The position numbers and the translations under genes are program-made. A stretch of 64,000 nt of DNA from Dysidea avara. Lineage: Eukaryota; Porifera; Demospongiae; Dictyoceratida; Dysideidae. The notes beneath the pieces are model-generated. The model did not search any database. It saw only the letters and a list, made by a program, of their open reading frames with translations, and was not told where the DNA came from. The DNA lies in contig NC_089279.1 of NCBI RefSeq assembly GCF_963678975.1, forward strand, positions 30,964,660 to 31,028,659. The letters run 5' to 3'. Positions 1 through 63,260 of the stretch are shown piece after piece (within the stretch, counting starts at the first letter, position 1; each line of letters begins with the position of its first letter).

Positions 1-1374
1 GATTGAGAGGTATTTTTCTATAATATTACAGTGGCAGCTGCCTTTTAAATGTACTTAACTCAAGACTAAAATATGTCTTAAGTATGAACAGCACTTGCAA
101 AACTTTTTAAAAATTTATTAATTAGCAGCACCCAACTAGCTAATATACAATTACATGTAGTGTAGGTGTTATTCCCCAATGGAACAGTCTATGTATTAAC
201 CTATCCAACAACTAGTAACAACTGCATTCTGTAATTGTAACTTAGTTCTTGGTAGGAAATTAGGAATGAGTTAGAGTCACTGAAGACTATACATTGTATA
301 GTATTTTTAAAATTGTTAATCTAAAAATGAAGTAGGGTTTTATGCAATAAAAAGTAGTGAAACAAGAAACAAACTGATATAATATATTACAGCATAGCTT
401 GGTGTGAAAATCCCTACTTTAATTGGCATTGAAGAAAATTATAGCTAATGTGCCAAAGTAGGGACTTTCCCACCAAGCTATGCTGTAAACGTTGCACTGG
501 AAATACTCTAATAGAACAGTCGCACTAATACAACAGATATTCTAATAGAACAGTCACAAATTACACTGTAACTAGCTGTGCTACAACAAAAAACTAAACA
601 AACTAGTATTTTATCTTGATGATTAATTTTCTGATCTTGATGGGCTTGAGTAGCAGTTTGATTTAATTTTGGCAGACAGCAATAATTATGGAATTTATGA
701 CATCCAGATATATAGAAGAAAGAAATTGACAGACTAAGTGACAATGAAGACTTAACACAGTGTATATGCCAGCCGAAAATCTGTAATTAGCTATCAAGTG
801 AAGAGAGGGGAATGCATACTTTCTCAGATTAACCATGTACCAAATTCATTCACACACTAGCCCAAACACCTAGTCACGCTAGGAATGGTAGTACAGAGGT
901 CTGTGTAATAGACAGATACTTCCATGGCAGTACAATGACTGACTATGGCCACCAAAAGAAATTGAACCTGTGTACATCAAATGGAAAATAGATATAGCAG
1001 GTGTATAGTATAATATCAGTGAACCAAACAACCAGAGGTGCTATCTTGGGAGTATGAGGTCATTACCTTTAGATTACTTCTCTTAATACCCATAAACCTT
1101 GTATTGCTGGCAGTATGAAAGAGTAATATTTTTCTCTTTAGTGCAACTACTATACAAGGATCTTAGTGGTACTATGTTGCTAGAAGGACTCATTTCCACC
1201 AATTGAATCACTAAAGTTGGTGGATAGCAATCATTCCCATCACCTCACTACATAGATTATAATGCAAGCAAAAGTTGTGTCATCATTATTATTATTAAAT
1301 TTTTAACTCTGTATATACATACCAGATTACTGTACATATAATTTCACAACTACATACATGACTGTAGATTCTGC
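1..1374. other. gene-free left flank
   Basis: No convincing exon was seen on either strand. The stretch holds one foldback element (323-490) and two copies of the dispersed motif TACTCTAATAGARCAGTCA (about 504-521 and 539-555). The remainder is AT-rich sequence without recognisable structure and serves as the 3' flank of the MATH-domain gene. Confidence 0.5.
323..490. repeat. foldback element, AAAAAGTACTGAAACAAG family (copy 1)
   Basis: The left arm has a start like GAAGTAGGG, the family core AAAAAGTAGTGAAACAAG, then a segment with AGCATAGCTTGGTG and TCCCTACTTT. The right arm (about 451-488) repeats the last segment inverted (AAAGTAGGG, then CACCAAGCTATGCTGT). The outer part of the right arm is missing, so this copy is truncated. 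Related copies lie at 26151, 27321, 41364 and 48067. Confidence 0.7.
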
Positions 1375-2721
1375 TTATGAAAATTCATAAATTATGTACA
1401 TGATCAAATTCAACAGTAATGTGCAGCAAAGATATAGACCAAAATTTACTGTGACATTAACAATATCATGACCATAATTACTTAGTGTTTCTAAAACATA
1501 CATTATCCAAGGTAAGCTTATCATAATTGTTGAATTATTTGTATGGGACAGTGAATACTTCCTGATTACCTTGAATAATGCTAACACAAAAACAAGTATG
1601 CTTGACATTCTAAGCAACATATAAAGAATACTATAGCTGATAACACCAAACTCCCATAGCAATACATAAGACATTCCAATTAGTGTGATTAGCTCCAGGT
1701 CAACTATTGTGCTAAAAAGATCTTCTAACACCATCCATTTCACCAGAACCAATTGCAGTTTAATGTCATATTTGGATTTTTTAATCAAGCCTCTGACAAT
1801 TTCAATGATCAGTAATATTGTAAATGTAAAGGTACTATCTAACAGACATGTCATGATTAAAATGAGTGAATTTGGCATTACCATACTCCACAAGTAAGTA
1901 TATGAAAAGCTGGAACTGTATGAAACTCTGAAATATAAATTGCCATCTTTCTTGTAACTAATGTGATAGCCGTCATAATCAAGATGCTGATGAGATATCA
2001 AGTCATCTCCATACCCTTTTGCCATAACATCTTTCAACACTCTTTTAGTACAAGCACTGCAAGTCTCATTGCTTATAAAAAATACTTCTTGTTGATGTAC
2101 AACATCATACAATTGGTTGAGTAGTTCAACAGTAAATGCTCCATTCATTGGCCATTGACCTGACTTCTCTAGATCATAATCATGTGGACCCTCCATGAGG
2201 AACAAACCACCAAACACATGTGTTCCTTTATGATCACCATAACCATCAGCATCAACTCTTAGGCACACTTTATATCCACCCTCAAAAGCAAAGAATGGAT
2301 CACTGTACCATTCATTGTGCTCTAATTTCTCACTAAAGTTTGACATTCTCAAAATAACTGGAGCTACTTGAGAAGACATCATGTCTGGTGAAATCCATAT
2401 TGAAGTGCAATTGTCATAGTACTCCTCTAGATCTTGTTTAGAATCTACCTCATCATCATATGTATAGTTGGAAATCGTAGACTGAAGTGGGTTGTTGTTT
2501 GGTGCCATGGCCTGTGTAATCTCCGTTAGCAACGTAGTAATGTAAACCAAAATTACCAACATAGCTAAAAGCAGTGAAAGAACTGCTAAATTGAATCTCT
2601 TGTTTGTAGTATTAACATTGAAGACTATTATTTTGTGTTGGTTAGTTTTTGCTTTCTGTGAGTTATTTAGTACACTTATTCCACTGTTAATACTTTCTGC
2701 GGCACATGCAATAAAGGACAT
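1375..2721 (-). CDS. MATH (TRAF-C-like) domain multi-pass membrane protein
   Basis: An uninterrupted 448-residue single-exon frame starting at ATG 2721 and ending with TAA. Residues about 44-64 form a hydrophobic segment (signal anchor or first membrane span). Residues about 120-267 resemble a TRAF-C/MATH domain: WYSDPFF, GGYKVCLRV, GKGTHV, GLFLMEG, then QWPMNGAFTVELLNQ, and a closing GYGDDLISHQHL...LYFRVSY block. In TRAFs this fold binds receptor tails or peptides in the cytosol. Here it is followed by four or five hydrophobic segments (about 283-310, 340-385, 398-412, 424-445), giving an N-anchor/MATH/multi-span layout. Two CxxC-like cysteines (221, 224) sit in a MATH loop. No nucleases or kinase motifs are seen. 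Function is not known. The domain call is from remembered family patterns; the membrane layout is inferred from hydrophobicity. The upstream exon structure, if any, is not visible. Confidence 0.75.
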   Translation of the reverse strand: MSFIACAAESINSGISVLNNSQKAKTNQHKIIVFNVNTTNKRFNLAVLSLLLAMLVILVYITTLLTEITQAMAPNNNPLQSTISNYTYDDEVDSKQDLEEYYDNCTSIWISPDMMSSQVAPVILRMSNFSEKLEHNEWYSDPFFAFEGGYKVCLRVDADGYGDHKGTHVFGGLFLMEGPHDYDLEKSGQWPMNGAFTVELLNQLYDVVHQQEVFFISNETCSACTKRVLKDVMAKGYGDDLISHQHLDYDGYHISYKKDGNLYFRVSYSSSFSYTYLWSMVMPNSLILIMTCLLDSTFTFTILLIIEIVRGLIKKSKYDIKLQLVLVKWMVLEDLFSTIVDLELITLIGMSYVLLWEFGVISYSILYMLLRMSSILVFVLALFKVIRKYSLSHTNNSTIMISLPWIMYVLETLSNYGHDIVNVTVNFGLYLCCTLLLNLIMYIIYEFS

Positions 2722-4080
2722 ACCAGAGTAAATACATCTAACAATAGTATACAGCTCAGCATGTGAGAATTATGTTATTTTCACATACAAATGTGTAGCT
2801 ACATTATATACTGATCATGAGATCTAGTTGTCTATCTTTACAGATAGTTTTTAAATACTAAGGGTGTTTTTATGTATGTGAAACAACAAGGTGGTCACCA
2901 TTGACTTGCATGTGAATCAGGCTTTGTAGAAGCCTTATACTGTATTGATGTATGAGGCTTGTGTGCTAATCAAGCCTAATAGATAACTTAACCATTACAA
3001 TTTCATGCAAAGTAGCCTACCAACTTTTTCTAGCTATTAATACCAATAGTCTATCATCTGACTGCTTTATTAGAGTATTTCATCATTTTATTATGCATGA
3101 TCAGAATCCATACAGTGCTGGTCTCACATAGTGCTTAGAATAACTTTATACATTGATATCAAGATGCATGGTTGTGTGTTGCGCACCCCAAGAAGCCGAT
3201 AACGTACAATGATGTGCAGGAAGTCAATACAAAACACGGTTTCCACATAATATATATAGCCCCCACTCCTTTCTCTTATTAAAGCAGATTTATAGTGGAA
3301 TTTATTGCCAGGTAGAGCAGGCAAAATATAGAACATCAGAAAAATCACTCCAGTCATTCCCATGACCAAAATTTCAAGCTCCTTCTTCTCAGTTTTTGCA
3401 CTTTGCAAAATCCATCACAAGACACAACCATTATCCAAAGTGGCACATGTGAAGGGTGCCAAAAGCAAATACCAGTACACATTTTTCATATGAAAGCTAT
3501 ACACATAAGTTAAACATTGCAGAAGTGCCTTTTGGTGGTTGAAGAAAATCAACAATGAGCTCACGCAAACAAATATCTGTAACAGGTGCTTGCATGATTG
3601 AATTTACAAACATGATAAAGATTACTCTGGTTTGCTGTTATAGGCCTACTAGACAAACTGTTTGAAAGAATGAGCTAAAAATTAGTATGCAGAAGATAGA
3701 AACCCAAACATGCACTCAATGATACTCTAATAAAATTATGTAGTCAGCAATCGATTTAATATACAATCACAGTACTGTATAAGAATAGATAGTTAGCTCA
3801 AAAAGTGATAAGTATCAATAAGAAGAAAGAATGTAGTCTGAAACCTTTGTTTTCACAACTATTTTTATTCTGAAGTGGACCACACCTTTGGTTGTTTTGA
3901 TATAGATAAAATTATACAGTAGCAACATGTTGATCATGCCTAAACTGCTTCCAGTAATGGAAGGGACATTAGACAGCAACTTCCTCCACAAGCACATGCA
4001 GTTTAACTGCAGTTGCAGACATTATTTCCATCAGAAAAGGGAATCTCACAAGGCACTAATTTATAGTCTACATAGTTACA
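2722..4080. other. gene-free stretch
   Basis: No supported exon. A single reverse-orientation copy of the TACTCTAATAGARCAGTCA motif sits near 3062-3080 (GACTGCTTTATTAGAGTA). The rest is unremarkable AT-rich sequence. Confidence 0.45.
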
Positions 4081-4083
4081 AAC

Positions 4084-4135
4084 ATGTGTGCGTGCGTGCG
4101 TGCATGAGTATATGTGTGTGTGTGTGTGTGTGTTC
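4084..4135. repeat. (TG)n/(CGTG)n microsatellite
   Basis: A GTGCGTGCGTGC run followed by an uninterrupted TG run, directly abutting the inverted part of the LINE fragment. Confidence 0.9.
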
Positions 4136-6044: not shown

Positions 6045-6047
6045 TCA

Positions 6048-6099
<52 letters not shown>

Positions 6100-6100: not shown

Positions 6101-6109
6101 TAGATTCAC

Positions 6110-10985: not shown

Positions 10986-11353
10986 AGCCGGATGTCACCC
11001 TCAACACCTGTGATTCATTATACATTATGTAAGAGGCTGTAATACATTTAGCAAGAACAAGAAAAAAATTAGCTAAATGCTCATGTGTGCATAGCAAGGA
11101 GTGATAATTATATTATGCTAACTAATTAATACAATTTTGTTCAGTTCAGGTCTGTACTCTGGAGATAATCTCTTGCTGCATTTTCACACCATAAATATCC
11201 TTTGAGAGGCTGAGTTACAGAATACATTTATAAAATTGTAGTCCATGCATGACTGCATAGATAAAACAGCATGAGTGGTCCTGTAAGTTATCTATGCTGA
11301 ATCCATGCACCATGAATCCTCTAATGTTTCACCATTGTTAGGCCTATAAGGGG

Positions 11354-12211
11354 TAGGGGTGCGGCGATTATGCTGGCATAATTCCGGGAATAATAGGTAT
11401 TTGTGGGAATCAGGAATTATGCTAGCATTCTGAGGTGAATATAAAGCTTTAACAGTAGGAAATATGCAAATTGCACAATTCCGTTAAAAAAAATCGAGGT
11501 ACTCTAATAGAGCAGTCAGAAACTCTAATAGAACAGTCCAGGGGCGGCGGAACGGGTAGGAAGGGTAGGCAAATGCCTACCCAACTTTTAGTGGTAACTA
11601 TTGAGCCATGTTCCAAGTCCATAGAAAGCAGTCTGGTTGCTCTGATTTTTTAGGATCGCTTTTGGTTATTATCACTCGAGATACTCTAATAGACTAGTCA
11701 TCGATACCCTAATAGAGCAGTCAGTGACTATTCATTCCATTAGACTATATTAGCTATGCATTATTTTATAGATGTGAAATTGTCTCCAGATTCAATCGCA
11801 GAAAGCAATTTTTCAAAAAATTTCTGGAGCTGGCCTAAGCATGTTGCAAATGCTGGTTGTGATTGCACAACTATGATGCTGGTGATGGTCATAGAAGTAT
11901 GATCTTACAGTTGCCTACCCAACATGTAGACGCTTCCTCCGCCCCTGCAGTCACTGAATGTTTACTGTAACAAAGCAGTCATACTGAAACAAAATACTCT
12001 AATAAAACAACCAGCTAAAGAATGCAAGAATATTTGAAGCTTAAACATCAATGAAAATGGTCTGATACAGCAATTAACTGGCATTATTAGCCAATTATAG
12101 TGGCATAATTTTGGGAATAATGGGCAATTCTCAAAAGCATAATAGGTAATTTTTTGAGCACTGCTCAAAAGCATAATGCTCAATTTTTGGAGCATAATAG
12201 CCTCATGCCTA
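11354..12211. mobile_element. 445-bp hAT-like family, copy A (interrupted)
   Basis: Starts TAGGGGTGCGGCGATTATGC and ends GCATAATAGCCTCATGCCTA, imperfect terminal inverted repeats. Flanked by a perfect 8-bp duplication ATAAGGGG (11346-11353 and 12212-12219). It contains many GAGCATAATAGGT-like iterons near both ends and the paired motif ACTCTAATAGARCAGTC in the middle. A 409-bp element has inserted at 11539. Without it and its duplication the copy is 444 bp, equal to copies B and C. Confidence 0.9.
11539..11947. mobile_element. 409-bp hAT-like insertion nested in copy A
   Basis: Ends are CAGGGGCGGCGGAA and TTCCTCCGCCCCTG (inverted repeats with one mismatch). The flanking duplication is CAGTC (11534-11538 and 11948-11952). 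The uninterrupted paralogue at 38717-39164 reads AACAGTCACTGAAT across the same point, which proves the insertion and sets the duplication at 5 bp. No coding capacity. Confidence 0.9.
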
Positions 12212-12866: not shown

Positions 12867-14298
12867 CAGTGGCATAGCTACCATTGAGGCAACCGAGGCA
12901 GTTGCCTCGGTAAAAATTGCTCAACAATTCAGGCTGAGCAGCCTGAGTTTTCAGTGGCACCCCTAATTTTCTACTCAAACGTTTACTACTACTGAGACAG
13001 CATCACAGCTCGACTAGGGACCCGCCGATTATGCTGGCATAATTATGAGCATAATAGGTGTCTGAAAGCATTGAGCATAATGCTAGCATAATAGGTAGAA
13101 TATTTGTGTAATAGTATGAATTCTTGCTTATCAAAATAGCTATCACAAAAAGATCGATATACTCTAATAGAACAGTCAGTAACTCTAATAGAACAATCAT
13201 ATAACTGACTGTTCTATTAGAGTATATCTATCTTTTCTGTGATATACATTTTGACAAGTAAGTTTGTGCTTCAGCCACTTATTGTTTATCCATAAGTTGG
13301 AAATTATTACTAGAGCATGGGAACTGAAGCATAAATAATTGGGCATAATTTGAGCATAATGGGTAAGTATTGAGCATATATTTAAGCATAATAGGTAAGT
13401 TTTTGAGCAGTGCAGCATAGCATAATAGGTAAAATTATGAGCATAATCGGCGGGTCCCTAAGCTCGACTGTACCACACACAATAGAATCTATATGGCTGC
13501 AATACTAAGCAGGGTCAGAGCCCACGGTGACAAATCCGGAATTGGTTGGACCACTTTTCAGCTACTTGAATTTGTATCAAAAAGGTCGAGATACTCTAAT
13601 AGAACAGTCATTGTAATGTACTCTAATAGAACATTCAGTACAGATTATAGCCACTGTTCTCATTACACTGCTTGGTTTAAGTCATTTACATTTAGCTATG
13701 TTAATTGTCTTTAAATTACTTTTAAAAAGTTCCAATGGGTCAACTGCATGGCATTGCACTGAGCTACTGAATTGATCACATCATGCATTAGCAGTTACAA
13801 TCAAAAAATAGCTTCCACATACCATTTCAAAGCATATATTTTCTAAATTTTCCTTGAGGGAGCATGCCCTCATGCTCCTAGCTTGACATGCAGCTGAATA
13901 TCACATGAAATTATCAAAGAGATAATCTCCGACTTAAATATCACATCAGATCAATAAAAGTATAGTGTGCTTGACTATGACCTCCGTTGCAGTCCACGGA
14001 TGGCTTGACCTCTAAAAATGGCTTGACCTCTAAAAATATCTCTGGAGTAAGTCAGCTTTGTGTACTGAGTGAAATTAAACTAGTCTAATTATTAAAGCAT
14101 GGTATACTGTAGCATTAACTAAGCTGGAGCATTACTTATGACATGTAGAAAAATGCTCAGTCTTCTGAAACAGTTTCTTCCATACAACCAGTTAACCAAG
14201 TTTGAAAGTTTTTGTGAATCAGTTGAGTCAGACCCTCCCAATTAGGTCAATGTATAAAAACTTTGCCTCGGTAAAAAAGTTTCCTGGCTACGCCACTG
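12867..14298. mobile_element. hAT-like element, CAGTGGC ends, hosting copy B
   Basis: Starts CAGTGGCATAGCTACC and ends GGCTACGCCACTG, inverted repeats with a few differences. A TTGCCTCGGTAAAAA segment recurs near both ends in direct orientation. The flanks share ATAGC (12862-12866 and 14299-14303), a 5-bp duplication. A second transposon (13015-13460) lies inside, and two motif copies (about 13591-13610 and 13619-13637) follow it. No transposase seen. Confidence 0.75.
13015..13460. mobile_element. 445-bp hAT-like family, copy B
   Basis: The inverted ends share TAGGGACCCGCCGATTATGC exactly. The flanks are a perfect 8-bp duplication AGCTCGAC (13007-13014 and 13461-13468). The middle holds three motif copies, two direct and one inverted (about 13159-13224), which together form a hairpin. 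Many GAGCATAATAGGT iterons occur. Perfect ends and duplication suggest one of the younger copies. Confidence 0.95.
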
Positions 14299-22204: not shown

Positions 22205-22885
22205 TGTAGGTTTGAGCCAATTATGCTATTGTTTTTATTATATATTTCTTGACTAATCTTATTCACACTTTGCAGAAATAAGCAGTCACTTACTCTAATA
22301 CAACAGTAAGGAAAGGCTGATATACTCTAATAAAACAGCCAACTCTAGAGCATAATCTTGATTTTAAGAACAAAATAGGCTGGATTTTTTAGCACTGCTC
22401 AAAAGCATAATAGGTTATTTTCAAAGCATCACACATTTACTTGATATGAAATGTGGTATTCAGGTGTAGTGAGTTCATGTTTTGCCATATTTTGACATGT
22501 ACATTGCACATTTTAATTAAAAATCTTGAAAATCATCAAATTATGCTGGCATAATGCTTGATGCTTTTGGCAGCCTATGAAATTATGACAGCATAATTGG
22601 CACAGACATAGTCCGGTGTGCATAAATAATCTCTGTGTGTGCACAATGCATGTCAAAAATTGGCACACTTGTATTGGAACAGTTAACATGTTGTTTAGTA
22701 TATTATATGGATTTTCACAGTTACTCAGAACATCACAAGTCAATAGTTGTTGTATCCAAATTTGTAAAGGGTACCACGTATAAGTTCAGCATCATTATAA
22801 GCATGATGTCTGATTTTTTTATGTTGACTCACACAGCATAATGTGTAATATTGTTAATTAAAACATAATAGGCTGGTGCCTGAAT
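22205..22885. mobile_element. degenerate 445-bp hAT-family remains
   Basis: Pieces of the family lie in scrambled order. At 22260-22430 the text runs parallel to 46970-47125 (shared TTCACACTTTGCAGAAATAA, motif pair, GAGCATAATCTTGATTTT). At 22537-22602 a piece matches the inverse of 46750-46825. At 22862-22880 there is a terminal-like CATAATAGGCTGGTGCCT. No target duplication can be assigned. Confidence 0.65.
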
Positions 22886-26380: not shown

Positions 26381-27184
26381 AAAGCAATTCATGGTTGGTG
26401 GGGGGGAGGGGGGTAGACAGTGTTAAGGATAAGATGCAAGCTAATGCTGTGTGGAAAAGTACTAAAGAAAATTTAAAAACTAGTGCTCTGAGATTGGATT
26501 ACGATGTATTCTTGGCAGTAAAACATGCTTGAATCATTCCATCAAATACAGCAGTGTATATTTAGCTTACCTCTATGTCAGCACACACAACTTTCCTAAT
26601 AGTACAAAAATTATTTTAGAGCCACTTATCTAGATTTTTGTTTGAAGTATGGTTGTGAAGTCAGGTGTGCAAGTAGATAGCTTCATAACTGCTTCATGGA
26701 TTGTTGGTTGACTCTGATTAATTAGAAAGTAGAGTAATCTGAAACATTGGTAGCAAGAAGACAGTTGAGTTCTTAAGAGATGACTTGAGATGGCTAACCA
26801 AAATATTGGGGGACCATGGTCCCCTGGCCCCTTTGCTTCCTATGCCTATGAAGTAATGATTTTAAATATACTAATTCATTTAGTTCCTTTGTTATAGCAT
26901 ACAGCTGTGATGTATATGTGTGACTGTTATAGTACATGACTGTTATGCTAGGGTAACTGCCGCATTAAAGGATCTCAAGTGGGCCTCTATCCCTGCCCAA
27001 TATATCAAGGGTTGTGGTCACTATGTCCTATTTGCATTGTGTTATCAATATAAGTATAGATAGACCAATAAGGAAACATGGTCATCATGTTTGAGTAAAT
27101 GGATTGTTAATATGCTGTTGCTATTGTTCCGGCAGCTGTCACATGAATACAATTAAAACTTGGACAAAAAAGTGCTGAAACAAA

Positions 27185-28956: not shown

Positions 28957-30675
28957 TTAGCTGAGCAGAAATCGACGAAGTGCCATCCGAAAAGGAATTG
29001 CTTTGGAAATTTGTAAAATTTCTACAGGTACTGAGTTCCAAAGAAATGGAGAATTTATGAAAAAAGAAAAACGGTATGCGTTAATGGTAGATGATGATGT
29101 GGTAAGTGAAAGTGAATGGAATCTAGTATTGGTGCTTGAAAACTTGAAATGTGAGTTGAATGGGATAGAAACTCTGTCATGTAAAATATCGTGTACTTGA
29201 GTTATAGTAAAATAGGACTGACGAGTATGGAGCGCAGGCCATCTTAGGTCCTGCAAACAAGAAGTAGAAGATTTGGACCAGTTATGTGAATGAGGATTCC
29301 ATCTGCTACCACACACCCAGCGTGCAGCTCGTCTCTGAATTGCTTCTACTCTATCAATGTCTCTGGCAGTGTGTAAATACCATACAGGTGAGGCACATTC
29401 TAGTAACGGTCTAACAAGGCAATTGTAGGCAGCAGATTTAACAGTAGATGGACTTGCAAAAAGAGTGTGTCTTAAATAGTTGAGTGAACGGGAGGCTTTA
29501 GCTGTTATATGTTTGACATGATCACTCCATTTAAGATGAGAATTGATGTACATCCCCAAGTAACAAACTACTGATTTAGATGGAATAGGCTGGTCATTAA
29601 GATGGTACTTGCACATTGGTGGCGATCGCTTATAAGATATACAAATACTTTCACATTTTTGTGGATTTAATTTCAGTTTCCATAACTGTGACCATTGATA
29701 AACTTTGGTCAAGTCTTCTTGAAGTAAAGTTTCATCATGAGTTGAAACAATTTGCTTGTATAAGACAATGTCATCAGCCAATAACTTAACAGTACTGCTG
29801 GAAATAACGTGATGGATTTCGTCAATGTAGAGTAAAAATAACAACGGTCCAAGAACAGAGCCTTGTGGGACACCTGAACGAACAGGAAGCCATTCTGAGA
29901 AACAGCCATTAATAACAACTCTTTGATAGCAATTGGTAAGGAACGAACCAAACCAAGAGAGTAGATTTCCATGTATGCCGAGACATTCAAGCTTAAGTAA
30001 CAGGTGGCAATGAGGAACCGAGTCAAATGCCAATAAAACACAATGAACTGAGTTTCGTCTTTCAAGGCAAAAAGCCCAGTCATTAATAGCTGAAAGTAAG
30101 AGGGTCACAGTTGAACGTTTACGATGAAAGCCATGTTGAGAATCACTGATGAGATGTTTAGACTCTAGAGCAAGTACAATTTGTCTGTGAATAATTCTTT
30201 CCATAACTTTCACAACAATGGAAGTAAGGCTTATTGGGCGATAATTAGATGGAAGGTGTTTATCACCCTTTTTGCGAAGAGGTACTACATTGGCAGTCAC
30301 CCAGTCCCTAGGCAGGGCACCAGAGGACAGTGACAGTTGAAATAAACGTGATAAAGGTAAGGAGATGAAATCGGCAGCAACTTGTAATAATTGAGATGGT
30401 AGATTGTCTGGACCACAGGCCTTATCCCGTTGTAAAGATTTAAGTTCTTCATAAACATTCTCTGGTGTGAATTGTACAGAGTCAATAAGCTTTCCATTAA
30501 ATTTGACAGACTCACGCAGAGATTGCAAGCCTGAGCAGTTTTCAGTTGTAAACACAGAGTTAAAATACTGATTAAAAGCTGTTGCCTTCTCAACATCATC
30601 TAAAACATGATTACCAGAAATGCTAAGTGGAGGAGGGGACTGATGAATTCCTTGACTGAATTTACAAAATTCCAA
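28957..30675 (-). pseudogene. LINE reverse transcriptase domain
   Basis: An open frame of 572 residues with RT fingers, palm and thumb. Motif C (ADDIVLY) is intact. Motif A lacks the DFxK block before AFDSVPH. The tail ends LWNSVPVEI, SKAIPFRMALRRFLLS, a typical LINE C-terminus. A C-terminal Cys motif is only suggested by WVCGSRW. Long open length despite missing catalytic residue implies fairly recent loss of activity. Confidence 0.85.
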
Positions 30676-30968
30676 AACTTCTTTGCATTTGCTGAATACG
30701 AGACAGAAAGTGCAGAAATGTAGTCTACGGTATCCTGTCTAGTCTTGGAACGAACCAAATTACTTATCGCTTTATACTTAGATCTATTTAGTTCAGAGCT
30801 ATTACGTTTAATTCTACGATACAAACGTCGCTTGACACGTATCAAATGGAGGGTGTCTGGAGTAAACCAATGCTTAAGTTTTTTCTGTTTCCATTGAGTT
30901 TTAGGTATAATAGAGTCAACAACTGCAAAAAATAAATTCTTCCAGCATGTCCAAGCATTTTCAATGTC

Positions 30969-31781
30969 TTATTCAAAATCCAGCTGATCCCAAGGAACAT
31001 GGGACAACAGCTCCTGAAATGCACAAAAATCGGCCTTTTTGTAATTATACAATTTCTTTTCACTGGTAGATGATTTTGTGGGAGAAATACAAATTGAGAA
31101 TTCAGCAGAATCGTGATCAGTTCCTGGCAAATTATCTACAGTCCGAATAGTGGAGATAGAGTTAGGACAGTCATGTGTAATTGAACAGAGATGAGTAGCG
31201 GTTGGAGATGATACAGCTGGAGAAACCACTGACCAGTCGATTGGGGGAACATTAAAGTCACCACATAATACTAGAGGTGTACCACCATTAATTAGTGATA
31301 ACGAGGAGTTCAGTTCATCCAGAGCTGACAGGGATGGACCTGGTGGACGATAGAATACTCCAAACAAAAGACTAGGTGAGGTAAGGAGTTTTACCCACAC
31401 TATTTCACAGTTTGTTTCTAACTCAGACATTCTCACCACGGGAATGGAGGAGCGAACTAGTATCATAATTCCACCACCGTGTCTATTTCGATCTTTACGA
31501 AAAACAACATAATTTGTGAGTAAAAATTGACAGTTAAGAATAGATTCATCTAAAAATGTCTCAGTTATAGCGACTACATCTGCATCAACTGCTGATAAAT
31601 AGGCTAACAAAGTAAAATGTTTTGGAAACAAACTGCGAGATATGTGGTTAGACCACAAAATATTTTTAAATGGTAGGGTTGTAATAAACACCCCACCCAA
31701 CCTTTTTTGCATGTGAAAAGCAGCCATGATATCAGCGCTACCATTTATCTTCCACCTATAATGGACAAACAAAGCACTCAC
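30969..31781 (-). pseudogene. LINE endonuclease domain
   Basis: A frame of 270 residues with the endonuclease signatures: ITET (metal-binding glutamate), GDFN and TDHDS (catalytic Asp/His region). In the living element this domain nicks the target to prime reverse transcription. It is cut from the polymerase part by TAA. The N-terminal residues before about 40 look weakly conserved. Confidence 0.8.
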
Positions 31782-32639
31782 TGTGATGGCTAGAAAGAAG
31801 AATAAACTGGATGTGCGCTTAAACGGCTTCTCATAGTGAAGACGGGTGGCTCACTAGAGACCCTATTAGGCGATCTTGTAAGGTAAAAGAGTGCTGCACA
31901 ACTTCAATCTGCCATCTATTAACGTTATAAGACTATAGTCGAACAATACGCATCCCTGAGCACACAAGATCCCGTAATTTTGTTCTTCTACGGCTTCTCT
32001 GTATACGGAACAGCTGGCAATGGCGAAGAAGAACTTAGAAATTTATCGAGGTGGAGGCCGGTTAGCGATCTGTGGAGTATGGGTTAATTAATGGGTCATG
32101 GACTCGCAGAAGGACTCAGTGAGTAAGGCTGTGTAGTTTCTATCGTGAAAAAATGGAAGCCTTGGGCTGTACACGAGTGAAACAAAATAATAATATTATG
32201 AATAATAATTATGAACAATTCACGTAAAATTCGCAATTTTTGAATGTTTCTAAATTTTGTCTAGACCATTTTTATTGCTATATCACCATTTGTCTGAGTT
32301 CAGTGTTTGATAATAAGCCATCTGAGTGTTGTTTTGTGCTCGAGTCTGCTTTCTAAGGCTGGTTTTAGGTAACTGCTCTATTAGGATTTTCAAAAATTCC
32401 ACTGCGATCCCTATTATGAACCCACTATCGTGGTTCATGATATAGTAAAAGCTATAGAAACTACAGGGCAAAGAAGAAACCAAAGCTGAATCCATCTAAT
32501 TTGCCTGATACACATAATGATGCTAGGTGCCAACTAATTATGTCAGCATTATTTAAAACACAGTATGTAAACAAAAGCATCAAGTATAATGCCATCCCAA
32601 TATGGACAATTTTCGACAATTTAATTAAATGTGCATAGC
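31782..32639. other. LINE 5' flank, gene-free
   Basis: May include untranslated 5' sequence of the retrotransposon, whose left boundary cannot be fixed from one copy. A partial motif copy (ACTGCTCTATTAGGA) lies near 32372. Nothing else recognised. Confidence 0.35.
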
Positions 32640-32649: not shown

Positions 32650-32975
32650 AGAGGGTGATTTATTAGTAGCTTTGTAGCTGAACTTTCCACAGGGTGATTT
32701 GTTTGTAGCTGAACTCTCTACAGGGTAATTTGTTTGTAGCTGAACTCACTACTGGGTGACTTGTTTGTAGATGAACTCTTTACAGGGTGATTTGCTGAGC
32801 TCTCAGCAGGGTGACTTGTTTGTAGCTGAACTCAGTGATTTGATTGTGGCTGATCTTTCCACAGGGTTATTTGTTTCTCTACTATGAGACTTGTTTGTTT
32901 GTAGGTGTAAACTCTCCACATGGTGGTTTGTTTGTAGCTGAACTCTCTACACAGTGACTTGTTACATAGCTAAAC
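32650..32975. repeat. degenerate minisatellite, about 33-bp unit
   Basis: Around nine imperfect units of the form TAGCTGAACTCTCTACAGGG followed by TGATTTGTTTG. It is followed at 32975-33040 by two degenerate TACTCTAATAGA motif copies. Confidence 0.85.
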
Positions 32976-33628
32976 ACTCTAATAGAGTAGCTTTCTATGG
33001 TGCTGAATGCTCTAACAGGGTGACCGGACATTAGAGTATATTGATTGCACACTTGCTACAAGTGGTTGGATTATGTATAGTGGCTTTTACTCTGGTACTA
33101 CTGCAAGGACTTTCAATTTTATTATTTCATCTACATAATGGTTTTCAGCTCACTCTTCTAAGCAGTTTGCCTGGTAGGTGTGAAAACTAATAGTTTTTTA
33201 TTCATGAAACTTGATCATATAATTGTGATATAGGTTGGGTTTTGTGTCATATCTCCATGGTCTTTATCTCGATTCCTTTAAAATCATAAAAAGGCACTCC
33301 TACAATGGTTACTTCATCTGGGTTCACCCTGCAGGCATGACAGAAGTTTGATCTCATTTTACATGAAGAATTGGTCATAACTCACCGGATTTGGTACTGA
33401 GATTTGCTTTAATGAGCCCTTTAAATTTCAGCCTGATTGGAGTACGCATTTGTATTTTATGGTGGATTTTGCAAAGTATGCAAAACGAAGAAAAATGTTT
33501 GGCCGCTTATAACTCGGAAATTTCTTAGGTAATTTTCTGCAAATGTGGTATATAGACTCCCCTACCTGGCAGGCACTTTTGCAGCAAATTTGGTTCCAAT
33601 TGGATTAGGGATCACGGAGTTACACATA

Positions 33629-38716: not shown

Positions 38717-39164
38717 TAGGCATGAGGCTATTATGCTCCAAAAAATGAGCATTATGCTTTTGAGCAGTGCTCAAAAAATCACCTATTATGCTTTTGAGAA
38801 TTGCCCATTATTCACAAAATTATGCTACTATAATTGGCTAATAATGCCAGTTTATTGCTGTATCGGACCATTTTCATTCATGTTTAAGCTTCCAATATTC
38901 TTGAATTCTTTAGCTGGTTGCTGTATTAGAGTATTTCGTTTCAATGTGACTGCTTTATTAGAGTAAAATTATATTCAGTGACTGTTCTATTACAGTTTCT
39001 GACTGCTCTATTAGAGTATCTCAATCTTTTTAAAGGAATTGCACAATCTGCAGATTTCCCTACTGTTAAAGTTTTATAATTACCTCAAAATGCTAGCATA
39101 ATTTCTGATTCCCACACATACCTATTATTCCTGAAATTATGCCAGCATAATTGCCGCATCCCTA
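38717..39164. mobile_element. 445-bp hAT-like family, copy C (inverted, uninterrupted)
   Basis: The left end TAGGCATGAGGCTATTATGC corresponds to the right end of copy A. The right end, inverted, reads TAGGGATGCGGCAATTATGC. Flanks ATTAAAAA (38709-38716) and ATTAGAAA (39165-39172) form an 8-bp duplication with one mismatch. It carries four motif copies in the middle. It shows the empty site for the 11539 insertion. Confidence 0.9.
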
Positions 39165-41762: not shown

Positions 41763-43244
41763 CAGTCTCACATGTCTCCCCAGTGAAATCATCAGTACAA
41801 TTACATGTGAACATGTTGATTCCATCAGTGCAATTGCCTTCATTGAGACAAGGACTTGGATCACAATCATCAATGTTCATTTCACAGATTTCTCCACCAT
41901 ATCCATCTTCACAATCACAAGTGAATGAGTCAATTCCATCAGTACAATTTCCATAATGGAGACAAGGATTAGGATCTCAATCATCAATATTTATTTCACA
42001 TATGTCCCCCTATATCCACTCTCACAATCACAAGTGAAAGAGTCAATTCCATCTGTACAGTTGCCTCCATTGAGACAAGGGTTAGGATCACAATCATCAA
42101 TGTTTATTTCACAGATGCCTCCACTATATCCACTCTCACAATCACAAGTGAACAAGTCCATTCCATCTGTACAGTTGCCTCCATTGAGACAAGGGTTAGG
42201 ATCACAATCATCAATGTTTATTTCACAGATGCCTCCACTATATCCACTCTCACAATCACAAGTAAAAGAGTCAATTCCATCTGTACAGTTGCCTCCATTG
42301 AGACAAGGATTAGGATCACAATCATCAATGTTTGTTTCACAGATGCCTCCACTATAGCCATCCACACAATCACAAGTGAACAAGTCAATTCCATCTGTAC
42401 AGTTGCCTCCATTGAGACAAGGGTTAGGATCACAATCATCAATGTTTATTTCACAGATGCCTCCACTATATCCACTCTCACAATCACAAGTGAACAAGTC
42501 AATTCCATCTGTACAGTTTCCTCCATTGAGACAAGGGTTAGGATCACAATCATCAATGTTTATTTCACAGATGCCTCCACTATATCTACTCTCACAATCA
42601 CAAGTGAACAAGTCAATTCCATCTGTACAGTTTCCTCCATTGAGACAAGGGTTAGGATCACAATCATCAATGTTTATTTCACAGATGCCTCCACTATATC
42701 CACTCTCACAATCACAAGTGAAAGAGTCAATTCCATCTGTACAGTTGCCTCCATTGAGACAAGGGTTAGGATCACAATCATCAATGTTTATTTCACAGAT
42801 GCCTCCACTATATCCACTCTCACAATCACAAGTAAAAGAGTCAATTCCATCTGTACAGTTGCCTCCATTGAGACAAGGGTTAGTATCACAATCATCAATG
42901 TTTATTTCACAGATGCCTCCACTATATCCACTCTCACAATCACAAGTAAAAGAGTCAATTCCATCTGTACAGTTGCCTCCATTGAGACAAGGGTTAGTAT
43001 CACAATCATCAATGTTTATATCACAGATGCCTCCACTATAGCCATCCACACAATCACAAGTGAACAAGTCAATTCCATCTGTACAGTTGCCTCCATTGAG
43101 ACAAGGATTAGGATCACAATCATCAATGTTTATATTTCACAGATGCCCCCACTATATCCATCCACACAATCACAAGTAAAAGAGTCAATTCTGTCCTTAC
43201 AGTTACCACCATTGAGACAAGGATTAGGATCACAATCACAATAC
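41763..43244 (-). CDS. array of 13 EGF-like modules (disrupted)
   Basis: Thirteen 114-nt units encode EGF modules of the form DDCDPNPCLNGGNCTDGI, SFTCDCESGYSGGICEIN, typical of the calcium-binding type in Notch-like and other extracellular proteins. Adjacent units are nearly identical, so the array has expanded recently. The left end has a good donor (GACTG|GTAAGT at 41763). Three lesions are visible: a 2-nt insertion between units 1 and 2 (about 43131-43136), a 1-nt deletion near 42005-42010 (GCCTCCAC to GTCCCCC), and a cysteine codon turned to TGA (41976-41978). The longest intact run is 41991-43067. The opposite strand is also open only because the unit is a multiple of three. Likely 5' part of the EGF-sushi gene. 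Notch identity is not claimed. Confidence 0.8.
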
Positions 43245-46079: not shown

Positions 46080-47614
46080 TATAGGGATCCTTGGTAGAGG
46101 CAATGTCTGACAGAACGAAAAATATAAGGAATGCTAAACCCAGAGGAGCTTTTAAGAGACCATTAGATGCTGATGATAGTGGCATAGAAGTAGTGAAGAA
46201 GCCTAGACCTGAATTTAAACAATTTCCTAAACTCCTGGAACCACCAGTTGTACCGGTAGGAGAAGATGAGCACTCCTACAAAAGGCACATGCAACTTTTG
46301 AAGCATGAAGAGGGGAAGATCTCGCCTGATACACATGTGATCAACAGTCTTATGACAAAAACATATGCATTAAGACGCCAGAAAATCCTAAAGGAACATC
46401 AACCAATCAAGGAATTATTGAAGGATTGCCCATCCATAAAAAGGTGTAATCAGGTAAATTGCAATTGACTCCTATGTATATAGATTTTACATAATACTCA
46501 TGATAAAACCTTGTGTGCATATTAGATTTTGGCTGAGCTTAATCGCATTGTCCAAAGAAGAGAGGCTACAAAAGAAATGAAAGAGATTTGGATGAATACC
46601 ATTCCAAAGATAATTGCTGTTGCCAATGAAGAAGGTAACCCACATCTGAGGGTTCTTTGTGATGAAGCAAAAGCACCTATTTCGGAAGGTACAATAGTTC
46701 ACATTGCCAAATGTTCTTAATCCACACATGCATATAGTTTCCAGATAGGCACCGGCCGATTATGCCGGCATAATTTAAAGCATAATAGGTGACCAAAAGC
46801 ATCAAGCATAATGCCAGCATAATAGGGACGATGTTTGAAAAATTAATTAAATGCGCAATACGCGTGCCTGAAAGAAAGCAAATATTCACTGCCAATGGTA
46901 TTATTTGTGCATTTTATAATCGAAAACACGTAATATAACTTATTAAACCGTTTCTTTGTTGGTTATTCACACTTTGCAGAAATAAGATCGAGATACTCTA
47001 ATACAGCAGTCAGGAAAGACTGATATACTCTAATAAAACAGTCACTTCTAGAGCATAATCTTGATTTTGAAAGCATAATTTTGAGCATAATAGGCTTAAT
47101 TTTTGAGCAATGCTCAAAAGCATAATAGGTAAAATTTCGGGCATAATAGGCCGGTGCCTATTTCCAGATCTATACTGGCCGCATTGATGCTAGCTTACTT
47201 GCTACCCGACACTAGAACAGTGGCCTAGTCAAGTAGACTGATTATTTTCATTTCGGTATGGAAATATATTTGGCTTTACATGCAGCTGTGTAGTTGTATA
47301 TATATTTTTAGGACTTCAGTGATGCTTCAACAGAAGCAAAGAACACAGAATATCCACAGCCTGTTATAATCATCAGGGGGCAGGCAAAAACTCCTAAAGA
47401 TGGATATCTAGTAGTCGAGAACAGGATTATGTCAAGAATTGATTTGACTGATGTGCTGATAATCCTATTTGCTTCCTACTATGTTTTCAACATGCAGTAC
47501 TGCACTGGCTGCACAAATATTTTCTCATTCTTGGAGGTACTGTTTCTGAATGCTCCACCAGTAAAAAGGTCTAAGCTTAAGAACTTCTTGAACAGTTTAG
47601 AGAACATAGAGTGA
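44998..47614 (+). CDS. SAM-domain protein (SAMD3-like type), spliced, two breaks
   Basis: Seven exons: 44998-45100, 45162-45475, 45534-45688, 45762-46017, 46085-46453, 46526-46688, 47312-47614. Exons 1-2 encode a SAM fold (FMQWLTAENEFSESVIESL, ESFVLLTDGDICDMVKPIG, RRKLIAKRDEL), a protein-interaction module. Later exons give YKALPTKEEYQSVALQVIEK then YPFLRSKSGS, a basic block (KPRGAFKRPL, VVKKPRPEF), VGEDEHSYKRHMQLLKHEE, VINSLMTKTYALRRQKIL, LAELNRIVQRRE, and a C-terminal ASYYVFNMQY...FLEVLFLNAPP. This order resembles uncharacterised SAMD3-like proteins of fish and invertebrates (memory, unverified). Exon 3 has an in-frame TAA (45642-45644) with the frame open on both sides. The exon 6/7 junction is off by 1 nt. 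A hAT-like element (46746) sits in the last intron. Possibly a decayed gene. Confidence 0.7.
46030..46078. repeat. (TA)n microsatellite in a SAM-gene intron
   Basis: About 19 TA units directly upstream of the acceptor of exon 5. Confidence 0.9.
46746..47160. mobile_element. 445-bp hAT-like family, copy D (intronic)
   Basis: 415 bp. Ends TAGGCACCGGCCGATTATGC and GCATAATAGGCCGGTGCCTA. Flanked by a perfect 8-bp duplication TTTCCAGA (46738-46745 and 47161-47168). Two motif copies at about 46993-47013 and 47023-47043. It lies in the last intron of the SAM gene. Its ends differ from copies A-C, so it is a separate subfamily, shared with the debris at 22205. Confidence 0.95.
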
Positions 47615-55295: not shown

Positions 55296-55304
55296 GCAAT
55301 TTTG

Positions 55305-56501: not shown

Positions 56502-58224
56502 GAAATAACAAGTAATATTTCATCTCTCTACTATATAACAAGCGACCTCAGCTCTGACCGTCACTACTACTCACCTACTAAAACCGCTGATATTAGATCC
56601 ATCACGGGCACAATCTCGGGAACAATGGTGCTGCTGCAGTACTGGGTAGTTTGGGCATCTTTTCTTATTTAATACTAAGGGACTAAAAACACGAGTGCAT
56701 GAGAAAGAAACCAGCCTTACCTGGAGAAGAGGATCCAGCACAACGAGAGAAGGCGGTTCCTGGCCCTCGCTCTCAGCCTTTTTAATCTCGTGAGTACACG
56801 TGATCACAGAAAAGGCGGGCATTTTATACTGTCCGAGATACTGTCAGTATGTGCCCCACAGATTCTACCGGTGAGCGATAGTCCTAAAAGCGTCTCTGAA
56901 GTGGTGTATTCTATGGCGCAAAGTTAGCGCCTCTAGCTACAGGTCAGTTGAGAATGGTGTTGTTCTATTACTCTTGACCAGGGTAGATGATTCCGTCTGA
57001 CAGGTTTTTGTTCATGGCCTACAGACGAACTTATCATCTTGTTAACCATTATAATTATGCTGATCTCCCTGGCCACTTGGCTAGCGATAGCCTGCTAAGT
57101 ATCTCGTCAACATCTAGGAGCTAGGCCTGAACCGCCTGATAAAGTTTTGATCTCCAATTCTTATTGGAACTGTCACAGTAGTTACCAACAGAGACCAACA
57201 TGTTTGTGGCTGCCAGCTCTAGGGAGAAAGCTTTTTATGGTCCTGTTAGTCCTTGATCATACTGGCTTATCTGTTTGTTGGTTGTTTAGGTCACTTCTTA
57301 CCACTGTTGACATCTAATTTATGTAAAGTCCGTTGTCTTCAATAACACTGTGTTTGAGCTATTTTCAAACAAGTTGTGATATCAGAACTGTGGGATGTTA
57401 TGAATCTTGTAACTGTTGATGATTATTGTATGTATGCATGTATGTTGTAATGTACTGCTTTTTTTGTCTTGAGCTACCTGTGTTTCAGCTAGCTGTGTAC
57501 CCCTGAGTATAGGCCCTTGTATATTGTCAATGCGTATGTTATCTTGATAAAATAAGATGTTTCTCTGTTTTTGTAATTAATGTGTGTAGGTGGTTGAGAG
57601 AGATAGCCTTTTCTGGAAGCCTACATAAGGGCTACTACAGAGGCACATGTGGTTTCTGGAAAATCTACCTCCAGAAGAGTTCAAGGTACAGACATATTAC
57701 TATGTTGTACGCAAGGGTGTCTCCAGTGACGCATCCCCTAAGGGATCTGGGAACATGACTAAAACACGGTACATGATGGAAAATGGACTGGCTAACGGAC
57801 TGGAAAAAACCTTGCCTTAAAATATTGCAATATAATCCACAGTACAGTTGCCCCAGAACATCCAGATGATCGCAAAGCGTGGTGCTTACTGTGAAATGTA
57901 CAGTACTAAAAGCAAAATTGTTGCTGTTATGTAACAATCGTACAACTGGTTTACAATCCACTATTTTGTCTGTAGAAGTCATCTCGTACTGTACAACATG
58001 GTCTGCTTTGAAGCCTAGAATGAAGACTCCAACACCTCTCTAGTCTCGTGCCTGAACCACTTTGAAACCAGGCATATTTTATTCGAGCCAATACGGTAGA
58101 TTCAAATTGTGATTGTTCTATTAGGGTGGTTGACTGCTCTATTAGGGTATTTTGATATGAACTTTTGTAATGCGTATATTTATTTATATTTAAATGTATA
58201 TAATATCTTGTCACCTTTAATGCA
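56502..58224. other. gene-free stretch with a motif pair
   Basis: No supported exon. A reverse motif pair lies at about 58110-58150 (GATTGTTCTATTAGGGTGG, GACTGCTCTATTAGGGTAT). Confidence 0.4.
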
Positions 58225-58232
58225 GACATGAC

Positions 58233-58722
58233 CAGTGTTGGGCAAGTTACTTGGAAAAAGTAACTTGTTACATATTACATATTACTTGCAACTGAACCAT
58301 TTAGTTACATATTACATACGTATTACCCATAAAATAAAGTAACTGTAATATTACTACTTATTACATTACTTTTTGTCCACGGCCTTAAGCTGTCACGTGT
58401 GTAACTACCACCTTATTACGTGACATGATTGCATTGTGTAAATGTTGTTTATAAGTAAATAAGCTTCATTCGGTAGGCTTTGTTACTTTGTTGTGGCTAG
58501 GCTTTACTCAGCGACTAGTAACGAGATTAATAACTTCGCTACTTGTAGTAATAATATTACTTAATATATTAGACTCATTACAGTAACTTCATTACTTATG
58601 TAGCATGCCATTTTTAGCAAAGTAACTCGAGTTATAATACTAGTTTTTATACTGTATTTTGTTATATTAATTTGTTACCAGAAAAAGTAATATTATTATG
58701 TAATGTGTTACTCCCAACACTG
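58233..58722. mobile_element. CAGTGTTGGG-type MITE
   Basis: 490 bp. Starts CAGTGTTGGGCAAGTTACTT and ends with GTGTTACTCCCAACACTG. Flanks GACATGAC (58225-58232) and GGCATGAC (58723-58730), an 8-bp duplication with one mismatch. TTAC/GTAA-rich interior. Elements with these ends are common in animal genomes; the superfamily is not fixed here. Confidence 0.9.
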
Positions 58723-59204
58723 GGCATGACCGATAAGTTACTGCTGAATTATTGAGTAGACGAAGCGCAAATGTAACAAAATGTTTGTGTAGGCAAATCT
58801 CGGTGGTGGAAGCGTGTACTGACACACGCTGCTTGGCACACGTGATCTGTTCCGTTTCTTTAGCAACACAACGTGGTGAGTTGGCATCGTCTGAAGCTAC
58901 ACCACAGTGAGACGTTCAAGCAACCATGCACCTGGAAACGGAAACTGTTGATACGCACTCACTTAAGGAGTATTTTTGGCAACTACTGTATGTCCTATTA
59001 GGGTAATGTAACTATGTTCTGTTAGAGTAGTTGAATGGAACTCCAAAAGGGTTGCTTCAATTAGCTCTGCAATATACCAATATGTAGTAATACCGAGCGA
59101 GGTATTAGCAAAGCCACAATACTATATACTGAGCCCCAATACTGAACCGTGATGCCGAAATATCGTGAATACTGAATACATTGTAGTGGTCAATACATTA
59201 TAGT

Positions 59205-59354
59205 TAAAGCACTGCCACGCGCGTGTGTATGAAAAATACAGCACGAGGGGGTGTGTTGAAAAGCTAATACAGAGGCAAAGCCGAGTGCTGTATTTGCCTC
59301 AAGACACCCCCCGAGTGCTGTATTTTTGATACACACAAGCAAGGCGGTGCTTTA
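59205..59354. repeat. foldback element with CAGCACGAGGGGG arms, copy 1
   Basis: TAAAGCACTGCC...TGTGTATGAAAAATACAGCA pairs with TGCTGTATTTTTGATACACA...GGCGGTGCTTTA. A second copy lies at 60617. Both are followed by the same 150-bp text. Confidence 0.85.
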
Positions 59355-61325: not shown

Positions 61326-61544
61326 AAATGAACTGTGTGCTTACAGAATGAGTAGCTGAGTGAAAAGTTTTTACTTTTCTGCCTTCTTGTTTAATTGTGA
61401 TCAGTATGTTATTAATTCAAGGGCTCTAATTATATTTAGCAATACCGAGGTGTCACTTTAACAATATACCAAACAGAGGTTTTTTTGGAAAATACTGCAG
61501 ACCCCTATTTATGTAACCTTTGTGATTAAAGTTTATCATTTATT

Positions 61545-61920
61545 TTTTGTAGGAGAAGAAATTCATGGTGATGGTGTTTATTGAGACTATCTGTTAACTT
61601 GTCAAAGAACTTATAAGCTACATAGTGCCTTGCAACTGCTGGAGGAGATGCATGGGTTATTACAGAACATACAACATAATGGTAAGCATAGTGTGTGTAT
61701 ATCACAGTACTGGGTTGATTGTGTACTGTTTCATGTAGCTTGTGTTACCACCAGTGACGATTAGCAATGTGTTTGTGGTGACACTGATGATGTAACCAAT
61801 GCTGTGTTAAGCTGCTGTTTCCGTTGATGCTCAATTGAGTGAGTGTACATGTTTTGTGGTAGAGACAGGACACTATAAATGTCTCGATTTTAATGTGTTG
61901 TGTGAACAATAAACGTCATT
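61545..61920 (+). repeat. duplicated segment, copy 1 right part
   Basis: Shares with 63590-63965 the order GTAGGAGAAG, TTGAGACTA.CTGTTAACTTGTCA, CTGGAGGAGAT, ATTACAGAACATA, CTGGGTTGATT, GTACTGTTTCATGTAGCTTG, GAGTGAGTGTACAT, TGTGGTAGAGACA. Both copies end near an AATAAA (61909; 63963), so they could be copies of a non-coding transcript. Its left part lies at 58975-59060. Confidence 0.65.
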
Positions 61921-63129
61921 TTGCCCTTTATAAAATTCCTTTTTGTTGCTTATCTATAGTAACAAAACCAAAGTTTTAGTATGTTGTGATGGATAGACAG
62001 TTGAAACAGTAAGAATCTAGTATGACCAATAAATTGCAGGTGTCTTAATCAATCCTAGCTCATGGATCAAAACAGGGTACAGTAGGAAGGTTGGGCTATC
62101 ATTGCATAGGTTTTATCATTAGGAGCGTTCTTTCACCATGTATCTAAATGATTACAGTGTACGTAAAGTTTTCAACCAAGTGTGTGCCCACAGTTGGCAA
62201 AGGCCAACTGGGTGCATGTCTGATTTACTGAAAATGCTTTCTGTAAGATGTGTATGTTTATTTGTTTGTCTGTCCACACCCACACTTGTACGGCAAAGCA
62301 GCTTTCTGGCTAAATTATGCCTGTACTAAACTTCCACATAGGTAAGCTTTGTTTTGAAAGTGGTTATCTTCTCCCAGTTTAAAAATCAGGAGTAGCAACC
62401 TTCTGCAGACTGTGTGGGTGGCCTCCCAATGAGCTTTTCAGGTGTTTGACAACTGAAAAACACTGTAGTAAGCCTTGTAGGCTCCCAGGAAATGCGTATC
62501 TATTCACCTTTTAATGCAGCATGACCCGTACTTATGAAAATTAAGCAGGGGCATATCCAAGATGTTTCGAAGGTGGTTTAATTATAAAAATAATGCATTA
62601 CTATGACTATTTTGTTAGAGTAGTTTGTTATTATAGAATACCCCTGAATGCTGTATTAGGGTATCTCAATCTTTCTGTAGTCACTAATGACTCACTATGT
62701 AGCTAATTACAGTTAAAAGTGGATTAGGAGTTGGTGTTGCACACTAAATCTGTTACTTCTGAGTAAGTTAAAATTTGCAAGGGATTTCTGGAACCCCAGG
62801 AAACATGTCCCTCGGTGGATCAGCCCTGAGGCTTTGTTTAGAGAATTTTTTGGAAAGACAAGAGAAGATAATTTGTGCTTAATTTTGTTGTTTTACATGT
62901 TCTTGGCAGTGCCTAGCAACATATTTCTGGAGTTACAAAGTACAATAGAGTGATTATATTTAATAGTAAATAGATAGATAAAATTGTCCAGCATGGCATC
63001 TGGTTTTTAAAAGTAACTTAGCATTAACATGGCACATAGGCGATGGAACCCCCCCACACACACATACACTTTTTGGCAAAAGGCTCCCCTACTTTTGCCC
63101 AACGTGTGTTAAAAAAGATCAAGGTATTA

Positions 63130-63260
63130 GTTTCTCTAATAGAACAGTTGTATGTATGTTTTACCTGTAATATCACAGTGAAAATATTTTTCAATAGAAT
63201 TGATTGTTCTATTGGAGTATTTAGACTCTTAAGTGTATGTTCTATTAGAGTAGTTGATCA
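63130..63260. repeat. inverted motif array
   Basis: One forward and two reverse copies of the TACTCTAATAGARCAGTCA motif, with GATCAAGGTATTAG at the left and a TAGTTGATC end at the right, so the block forms an inverted repeat without transposon ends. Confidence 0.6.

Follow-up and report, generated by a model that had tools for sequence, protein, structure and literature searches.

In a window of 64,000 nucleotides from the sponge Dysidea avara (NCBI RefSeq assembly GCF_963678975.1, contig NC_089279.1, positions 30,964,660 to 31,028,659 of the forward strand; coordinates below are those of this window), a first-pass annotation had noticed a dispersed 19-bp motif in about 30 copies, often paired. 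We analyzed this motif, TACTCTAATAGARCAGTCA, and the small DNA elements that carry it. The window contains 29 copies with at most three mismatches, compared with 0.08 expected and a maximum of 1 in 100 dinucleotide shuffles. Each of the 28 positions listed in the annotation has a match start no more than 10 bases away (its 3068 is the minus-strand match at 3059-3077, its 62655 the match at 62645-62663), and the match at 11963 was absent from its list. With a position matrix, 32 sites above 14 bits were found, 0.15 being expected from 20 first-order Markov sequences; the sites at 26937, 32370 and 58987 are additional to the 29 counted by mismatches. Throughout the assembly (550,814,596 bases, 108 contigs), the 19-mer occurs 161,269 times with at most three mismatches (80,326 and 80,943 on the two strands) versus 355 times (186 and 169) for the reversed pattern, and exact matches to the 14-mer CTCTAATAGARCAG number 30,880 and 30,973 on the two strands versus 1 and 0. 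This amounts to one site per 3.4 kb genome-wide, equally on both strands, and one per 2.2 kb in the window; random stretches totaling 200 kb (20 stretches on contigs C1-C8, with starts at 0.1-30 Mb and 3,229 N included) gave 46 sites, or one per 4.3 kb. Chance or base composition as the source of the motif is ruled out by the shuffle, Markov and reversed-pattern controls.

The 29 sites of the window fall into three element families (15 in A, 2 in B and 2 in C) and a remainder of 10 in no family. The 445-bp hAT-like element of the annotation was recovered as a miniature inverted-repeat transposable element (MITE) of 446 bp, A2 (13015-13460, plus strand), with a perfect 21-bp terminal inverted repeat (TIR), the 8-bp target duplication AGCTCGAC, and motifs at 13160 and 13181 on the plus and 13206 on the minus strand. 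The hAT-like, non-coding family A includes three more copies with 8-bp target duplications, whose left and right ends are less alike. A1 (11354-12211, plus strand; motifs at 11500, 11521, 11963 and 11995) is homologous to A3, has the duplication ATAAGGGG on both sides and is interrupted by B. A3 (38717-39164, minus strand) has four motifs at 38915-39018 with spacings of 32, 32 and 21 bp, and its duplication is alike at 7/8 positions (ATTAAAAA/ATTAGAAA); A4 (46746-47160, plus strand) has a pair at 46994/47026 with a spacing of 32 bp and the duplication TTTCCAGA. The duplications of A1, A2 and A4 are perfect. Part of another A-type MITE, A5 (22259-22415, plus strand; partly delimited), with a pair at 22291/22323 spaced by 32 bp, is 81.7% identical to 46963-47130.

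MITE B (11539-11947, plus strand) interrupts the second motif of A1 and has its own motif pair at 11682/11705, a TIR alike at 13/14 positions, the end sequence CAGGGGCGGCGGAA and the duplication CAGTC. Across 37 rows of B (the window copy and 36 fetched copies), the 5-bp duplication is perfect in 21, with 11 distinct sequences, alike at 4/5 positions in 5 and at no more than 2 in 3; the remaining 8 rows have no recognizable right end. The element that the annotation had placed at 12867 most likely extends to 14298, so that it holds the pair at 13592/13619 as well as the nested A2. This probable hAT-like element, C (12867-14298, plus strand), is known from a single copy with ends alike at 12/15 positions and the 5-bp duplication ATAGC. 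hAT transposons produce target duplications of 8 bp, and of 5 bp in some hAT groups; judged by their inverted repeats and target duplications, the carriers A, B and C fit MITEs of the hAT superfamily. The motif has the same arrangement, in direct pairs, in all three.

The conserved unit is longer than the annotation had described. Its 19-bp core was confirmed, with 0.73 to 1.96 bits per column and less than 0.4 bits outside it, except at positions -2 (0.99), -9 (0.50) and -13 (0.76); the full unit can be described as GATYGAGATACTCTAATAGARCAGTCA, of about 27 bp. Indeed, the 24-mer GATYGAGATACTCTAATAGARCAG occurs exactly 20,785 times genome-wide (10,407 and 10,378 on the two strands; control, 0), at about one-third of the frequency of the 14-mer. 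The word GATYGAGA often lies upstream of the first copy of a cluster, and the TYGAGA of the annotation is therefore real for first copies; later copies of a cluster usually lack the upstream part. Frequent pairing was also borne out. Among window neighbors less than 60 bp apart, weak sites counted, 15 of 17 have the same orientation, with spacings of 21 to 41 bp; the two opposite-facing pairs are 13181/13206 and the weak pair 32975/33004. In the random 200 kb, neighbors less than 80 bp apart share their orientation in 11 of 11 cases, at spacings of 17 (n = 3), 21 (n = 2), 25, 27, 32 (n = 3) and 38 bp, and 20 of the 46 sites lie in clusters of less than 60 bp, the other 26 being unclustered. 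Spacings of 17, 21 or 32 bp are the most frequent. For helical phasing, the spacings gave p = 0.018 with 11 values and p = 0.08 with 9, and we make no claim of it.

Because spacings vary from 17 to 41 bp and more than half of the random-sample sites (26 of 46) lie outside clusters, the motif as the monomer of a minisatellite is unsupported; nor was the alignment of a 27+4-bp unit to the 31-bp minisatellite of the window better than that of shuffles (68% were as good). A 17-bp period does exist at 504-556 and in stretch L024. The 31-bp minisatellite was observed in the window at 32671-32963 and after the motif pair of a further family, F, in L019, L023, L024, L025 and L028; by eye its units look like motif 2 of F, and their match to the motif consensus is not above chance. 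At 32975-33045 (minus strand), at the end of the window minisatellite, lie weak, probably decayed motif copies (10.3 to 10.4 bits), with a 15-base core match that 0 of 1,000 shuffles equaled and an F-like appearance by eye.

Family F was found in the random stretches and has 453 candidate places genome-wide; the best 40 of the 453 were scored and are 96 to 100% identical. Its layout is two motif copies 17 bp apart, directly before the 31-bp minisatellite. The annotation had seen copies of the motif beyond the hAT-like family, and B, C and F do carry it. When the motif-masked flanks of 58 clusters (window and stretches L001-L028) were compared, they formed 29 components, of which the largest unites A, B and C solely through nesting within the 250-bp flanks; at the thresholds used, no further similarity was seen among the flanks of A, B, C and F. 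Descent of all sites as relics of one family is ruled out for the window by the split into A, B, C and none, and for the window together with L001-L028 by the 29 components. In L009 a stretch is duplicated at a distance of 6.4 kb, and each of its two copies has one motif (at 2326 and 8707) with well-kept flanks.

The word is common to families without other detected similarity; does it also change more slowly than its surroundings within them? Site finding by motif likeness favors conservation inside the motif, and copies of F and B were gathered from their flanks instead. Between old copies of A, the A1/A2 motifs have 2/37 mismatches versus 52/146 elsewhere (p = 9e-5, one-sided), and A3/A2 gave 3/37 versus 57/146 (p = 1e-4, one-sided; this test shares A2 with the former), that is, 5 to 8% in the motif versus 36 to 39% elsewhere. 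Among seven copies of F, mean pairwise mismatch was 3.0% in motif 1, 4.8% in the preceding 12 bp and 15.5% in the left flank, and 0 of 127 flank windows were as low as motif 1. Retention pointed the same way. A flank-only search found the core with at most two differences in 39/39 fetched F copies and the query, and at least one motif in 33/36 fetched B copies. Among the more diverged F relatives found by their flanks, 6/7 with at least 73% identity (query aside) hold the motif. Other flank queries gave relatives with the motif in 3/3 (A3 left), 2/2 (A3 right), 1/1 (A2 left), 1/1 (H left), 1/3 (A4 right), 1/6 (F2 left) and 1/1 (F2 right) cases. In young B copies, the motifs had 22/670 mismatches (3.3%) versus 371/5677 (6.5%) elsewhere (p = 5e-4). 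This set came from 71 candidates, the best 40 of which were scored; leaving aside the window copy, 36 of the other 39 were fetched, and 18 of the 37 rows were kept: 9 with the A+B junction of L069, 3 sharing the insertion of L074 and 4 without a right end were dropped, as were the motif-less L079, L096 and L097, which biases the comparison in favor of the motif. Among the copies examined, we thus found neither confinement to one family nor a lack of extra conservation; the 161,269 copies genome-wide were counted only.

Several observations weigh against selective upkeep of the motif. The second motif of the seven F copies, with 14.6% mismatch, is no better kept than the 15.5% of the flank, and five more distant F matches (61 to 69% identity) have no motif and represent the upstream unit of the same elements, so that the F left-flank search at all identities gave 6/12 relatives with the motif. 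Young copies of A showed no significant difference: A1/A3 had 1/37 versus 18/147 on the left (p = 0.07) and 4/38 versus 13/220 on the right (p = 0.91), and A4/A5 had 3/38 versus 15/118 (p = 0.31). In 39 young F copies and the query, the core had 5/759 mismatches (0.7%) versus 95/5919 (1.6%) in the non-CpG flank (p = 0.039), 10% of 139 flank windows were as low as the core, and the 27-bp unit had 15/1073 (1.4%) versus 119/6319 (1.9%; p = 0.32); these F copies are the best flank matches, so that flank change is understated. The lower mismatch rate of the young B motifs hardly stands out either: of 294 interior windows, 88 were as low as motif 1 and 11 as low as motif 2. Moreover, 23 of the 29 flank components are singletons to which no carrier could be assigned. 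The earlier description of a motif kept while its surroundings diverge therefore holds between families and over old divergence in A and F, and is weak or absent among young copies. We read this as constraint that would act on the lineages that keep amplifying, each landed copy then decaying nearly neutrally; the numbers behind this reading are small, and copies may have exchanged sequence.

The main rival is that the motif has no function and hitch-hiked, as a stretch of an early, very successful element that other families acquired through nesting, chimerism or gene conversion; its apparent conservation would then arise since the compared lineages are few or exchange sequence. The near-neutral decay among young A, F and B copies would be expected of such a passenger, and the means of transfer are visible: B is nested in A1, and the A1+B composite (11354-12211) has itself multiplied, because 10/37 rows of B show one and the same junction (the others being L068-L072, L083, L085, L101 and L102), and in some F relatives the right part next to the motif is replaced. 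The sharp information edges of the motif, its quiet across old divergence in A and F, and the presence of one word in families without other detected similarity speak against a passive stretch, and we regard hitch-hiking as possible but doubtful.

Since A, B and C are hAT-like, the motif might instead be a transposase-binding subterminal repeat common to related hAT families. hAT transposases such as Hermes do bind repeated words inside the ends of their elements (PMC10368747), and hAT genes are very common in this genome: we found 1,875 candidates, and among the best 150, which were scored, many domains lie in frames of more than 600 codons. However, the motifs of A1-A4 and B form one internal block, 123 to 250 bp from the nearer named end in the copies read, rather than arrays at the tips, and by eye the arms of A bear a different repeated word, GCATAATAGG. 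The motif was also scarce around hAT genes. With up to five mismatches, no copy was detected in the 1.2-kb 5' flanks of 8 long-frame hAT genes (640 to 691 codons), a weak test with about 2 expected, and only 3 copies were detected in 32.4 kb around 10 hAT domains, where about 7 were expected. The motif is not a typical hAT subterminal repeat, and a role as such a repeat appears unlikely on these sequence data. The suggestion of a promoter piece carried by transposons likewise found no support in these few genes; the 8 hAT genes, which have no copy in their 5' flanks, need not be the partners of A, B or C.

Another proposal of the first-pass annotation, a tiny unit with its own mobility, would account for the many flank contexts (29 components for 58 clusters). 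No clean empty site was seen among the A, B and F copies looked at, and the motif-less B copies L079, L096 and L097 have unrelated right parts, not clean gaps; we consider own mobility very improbable.

We favor the reading that the motif is a candidate binding site: a module of about 27 bp that would be recognized by its sequence, that several unrelated small DNA elements carry in their interior, and that is often followed, 17 to 41 bp on, by at least one shorter copy in the same orientation. We give this reading a probability of roughly 0.4. A protein-binding module is the simplest reading because a long, sharply bounded, direct-repeated word is common to otherwise dissimilar families. A DNA-binding protein would read the module. 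The motif is internal, forms one block in A1-A4 and B and is scarce around hAT genes; therefore, a host protein is favored over a transposase, and a host multi-zinc-finger or transposase-derived protein would be likelier than the transposase of the elements themselves. A length of 27 bp, or nine triplets, would suit a multi-zinc-finger protein, although this is arithmetic and not evidence. Binding may benefit the carrier through open chromatin, transcription, position or timing. Lineages that keep the motif would then continue to amplify, the decay of their landed copies being almost neutral, and modules could move between families when elements nest, as B did in A1.

The motif could alternatively be a host regulatory or architectural site, with many copies used at promoters, enhancers or loop anchors. 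Precedents exist in the HIM-17 sites of Caenorhabditis MITEs (PMC9757741) and in the Mutator TIR motif at placozoan loop anchors (PMC12221973). Landed copies, however, decay almost like their flanks, and therefore most copies are probably not maintained by the host, which makes general host use quite unlikely. CTCF sites were spread by B2 SINEs (short interspersed nuclear elements) in rodents, which offers a comparison for a boundary or loop function here. CTCF is stated to be absent from non-bilaterians (PMC12221973). In such a CTCF-less animal, the 27-bp unit might be the site of a multi-zinc-finger protein of the architectural or insulator type, several MITE families being selected to carry it and seeding its sites in numbers of about 10^5; at a density of one per 3.4 kb, these would form a transposon-built boundary or loop code. 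By analogy this can be imagined, and we think it improbable.

Among known systems, the closest parallels are partial. The HIM-17 m1m2 motif pairs in the Caenorhabditis MITEs CERP2 and CELE2, for which a binding protein and promoter use were shown, are likewise short motifs in defined pairs, with thousands of copies in two MITE families and in tandem in one (PMC9757741). There, however, two different motifs lie in inverted repeats (PMC9757741), whereas in D. avara one motif is repeated, internal and far more numerous, and the families differ in ends and duplication lengths. The highly conserved domains of SINEs, of which the V domain was captured by the MITE MER6, are also conserved internal modules of unknown function in unrelated mobile elements (PMC6887750); unlike the present motif, seen in DNA elements of the one species looked at, they are conserved across animals (PMC6887750). 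The placozoan Mutator motif has, like ours, been spread by DNA transposons in an animal outside the Bilateria, but it lies in the TIR of one superfamily and is linked by data to loops and promoters (PMC12221973), whereas the D. avara motif is internal. Hermes likewise has repeated words inside a hAT element; they are short and cluster near its tips (PMC10368747), in contrast to the internal word of about 27 bp described here. A literature text search with a 10-base core and its complement returned no repeat paper, judged by title, among the matches listed, and topic searches gave no description of the motif among the titles and abstract starts listed. The parts examined of a sponge chromatin paper contain no such word (PMC5429095). 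Neither the pair pattern and a 23-mer in a prokaryote contig collection nor the pair and the 19-mer in a viral contig collection found a match; records near the own genome may be excluded from both.

For the 10 family-less window sites, searches for element ends in the surroundings gave nothing convincing. The pair at 504-556 (plus strand) has a spacing of 34 bp, which a degenerate half copy divides into a period of 17; its flanks match a repeat recurring in L012, L018 and L023, and element ends were not found. The single copy at 3059-3077 (minus strand) and the pair at 58110-58149 (minus strand; spacing 21 bp) were matched by mismatch counting, and the end search around them gave no carrier. 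Beside the latter pair, at about 58232-58724, lies what by eye is another hAT-like MITE (CAGTGTTGGGCAAGTTAC ... CCCAACACTG), which is motif-free. A weak pair spaced by 24 bp follows at 58987-59029 (minus strand; 16.6 and 8.3 bits). The pair at 62604-62663 (minus strand; spacing 41 bp) has, by eye, a hAT-like end, CAGGGGCATATCC, nearby, and the partner end was not found. At 63132-63252, one plus-strand copy and a minus-strand pair (spacing 33 bp) have flanks that match a repeat recurring in L004, L021 and L023. The palindromic word GAGATAATCTC, found at 11162-11172 and 13919-13929 with looser relatives nearby, is possibly another dispersed motif. The window also contains a LINE-type (long interspersed nuclear element) element with reverse transcriptase and endonuclease frames (28957-31850, minus strand) and a 114-bp tandem repeat of 12.5 copies (41819-43242), whose minus strand codes for about 10 EGF-like domains. 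Of 10 open frames compared with Pfam, 7 match Death, Sushi (two), EGF, MATH, reverse transcriptase or endonuclease families, which marks the genome as that of an animal. A check of the window for known RNA families and for tRNAs found none.

Should the motif be bound by a host protein, D. avara would have about 160,000 candidate sites for a single factor in its genome, brought there by several independent families of transposons. This would permit a direct test of whether unrelated selfish elements rely on one host factor, and of the ways in which regulatory or architectural networks arise from transposons in an early lineage of animals. Even if the host makes no use of the copies, the presence of one 27-bp word in families without other detected likeness shows that MITE families exchange or jointly preserve internal modules and not just their ends.

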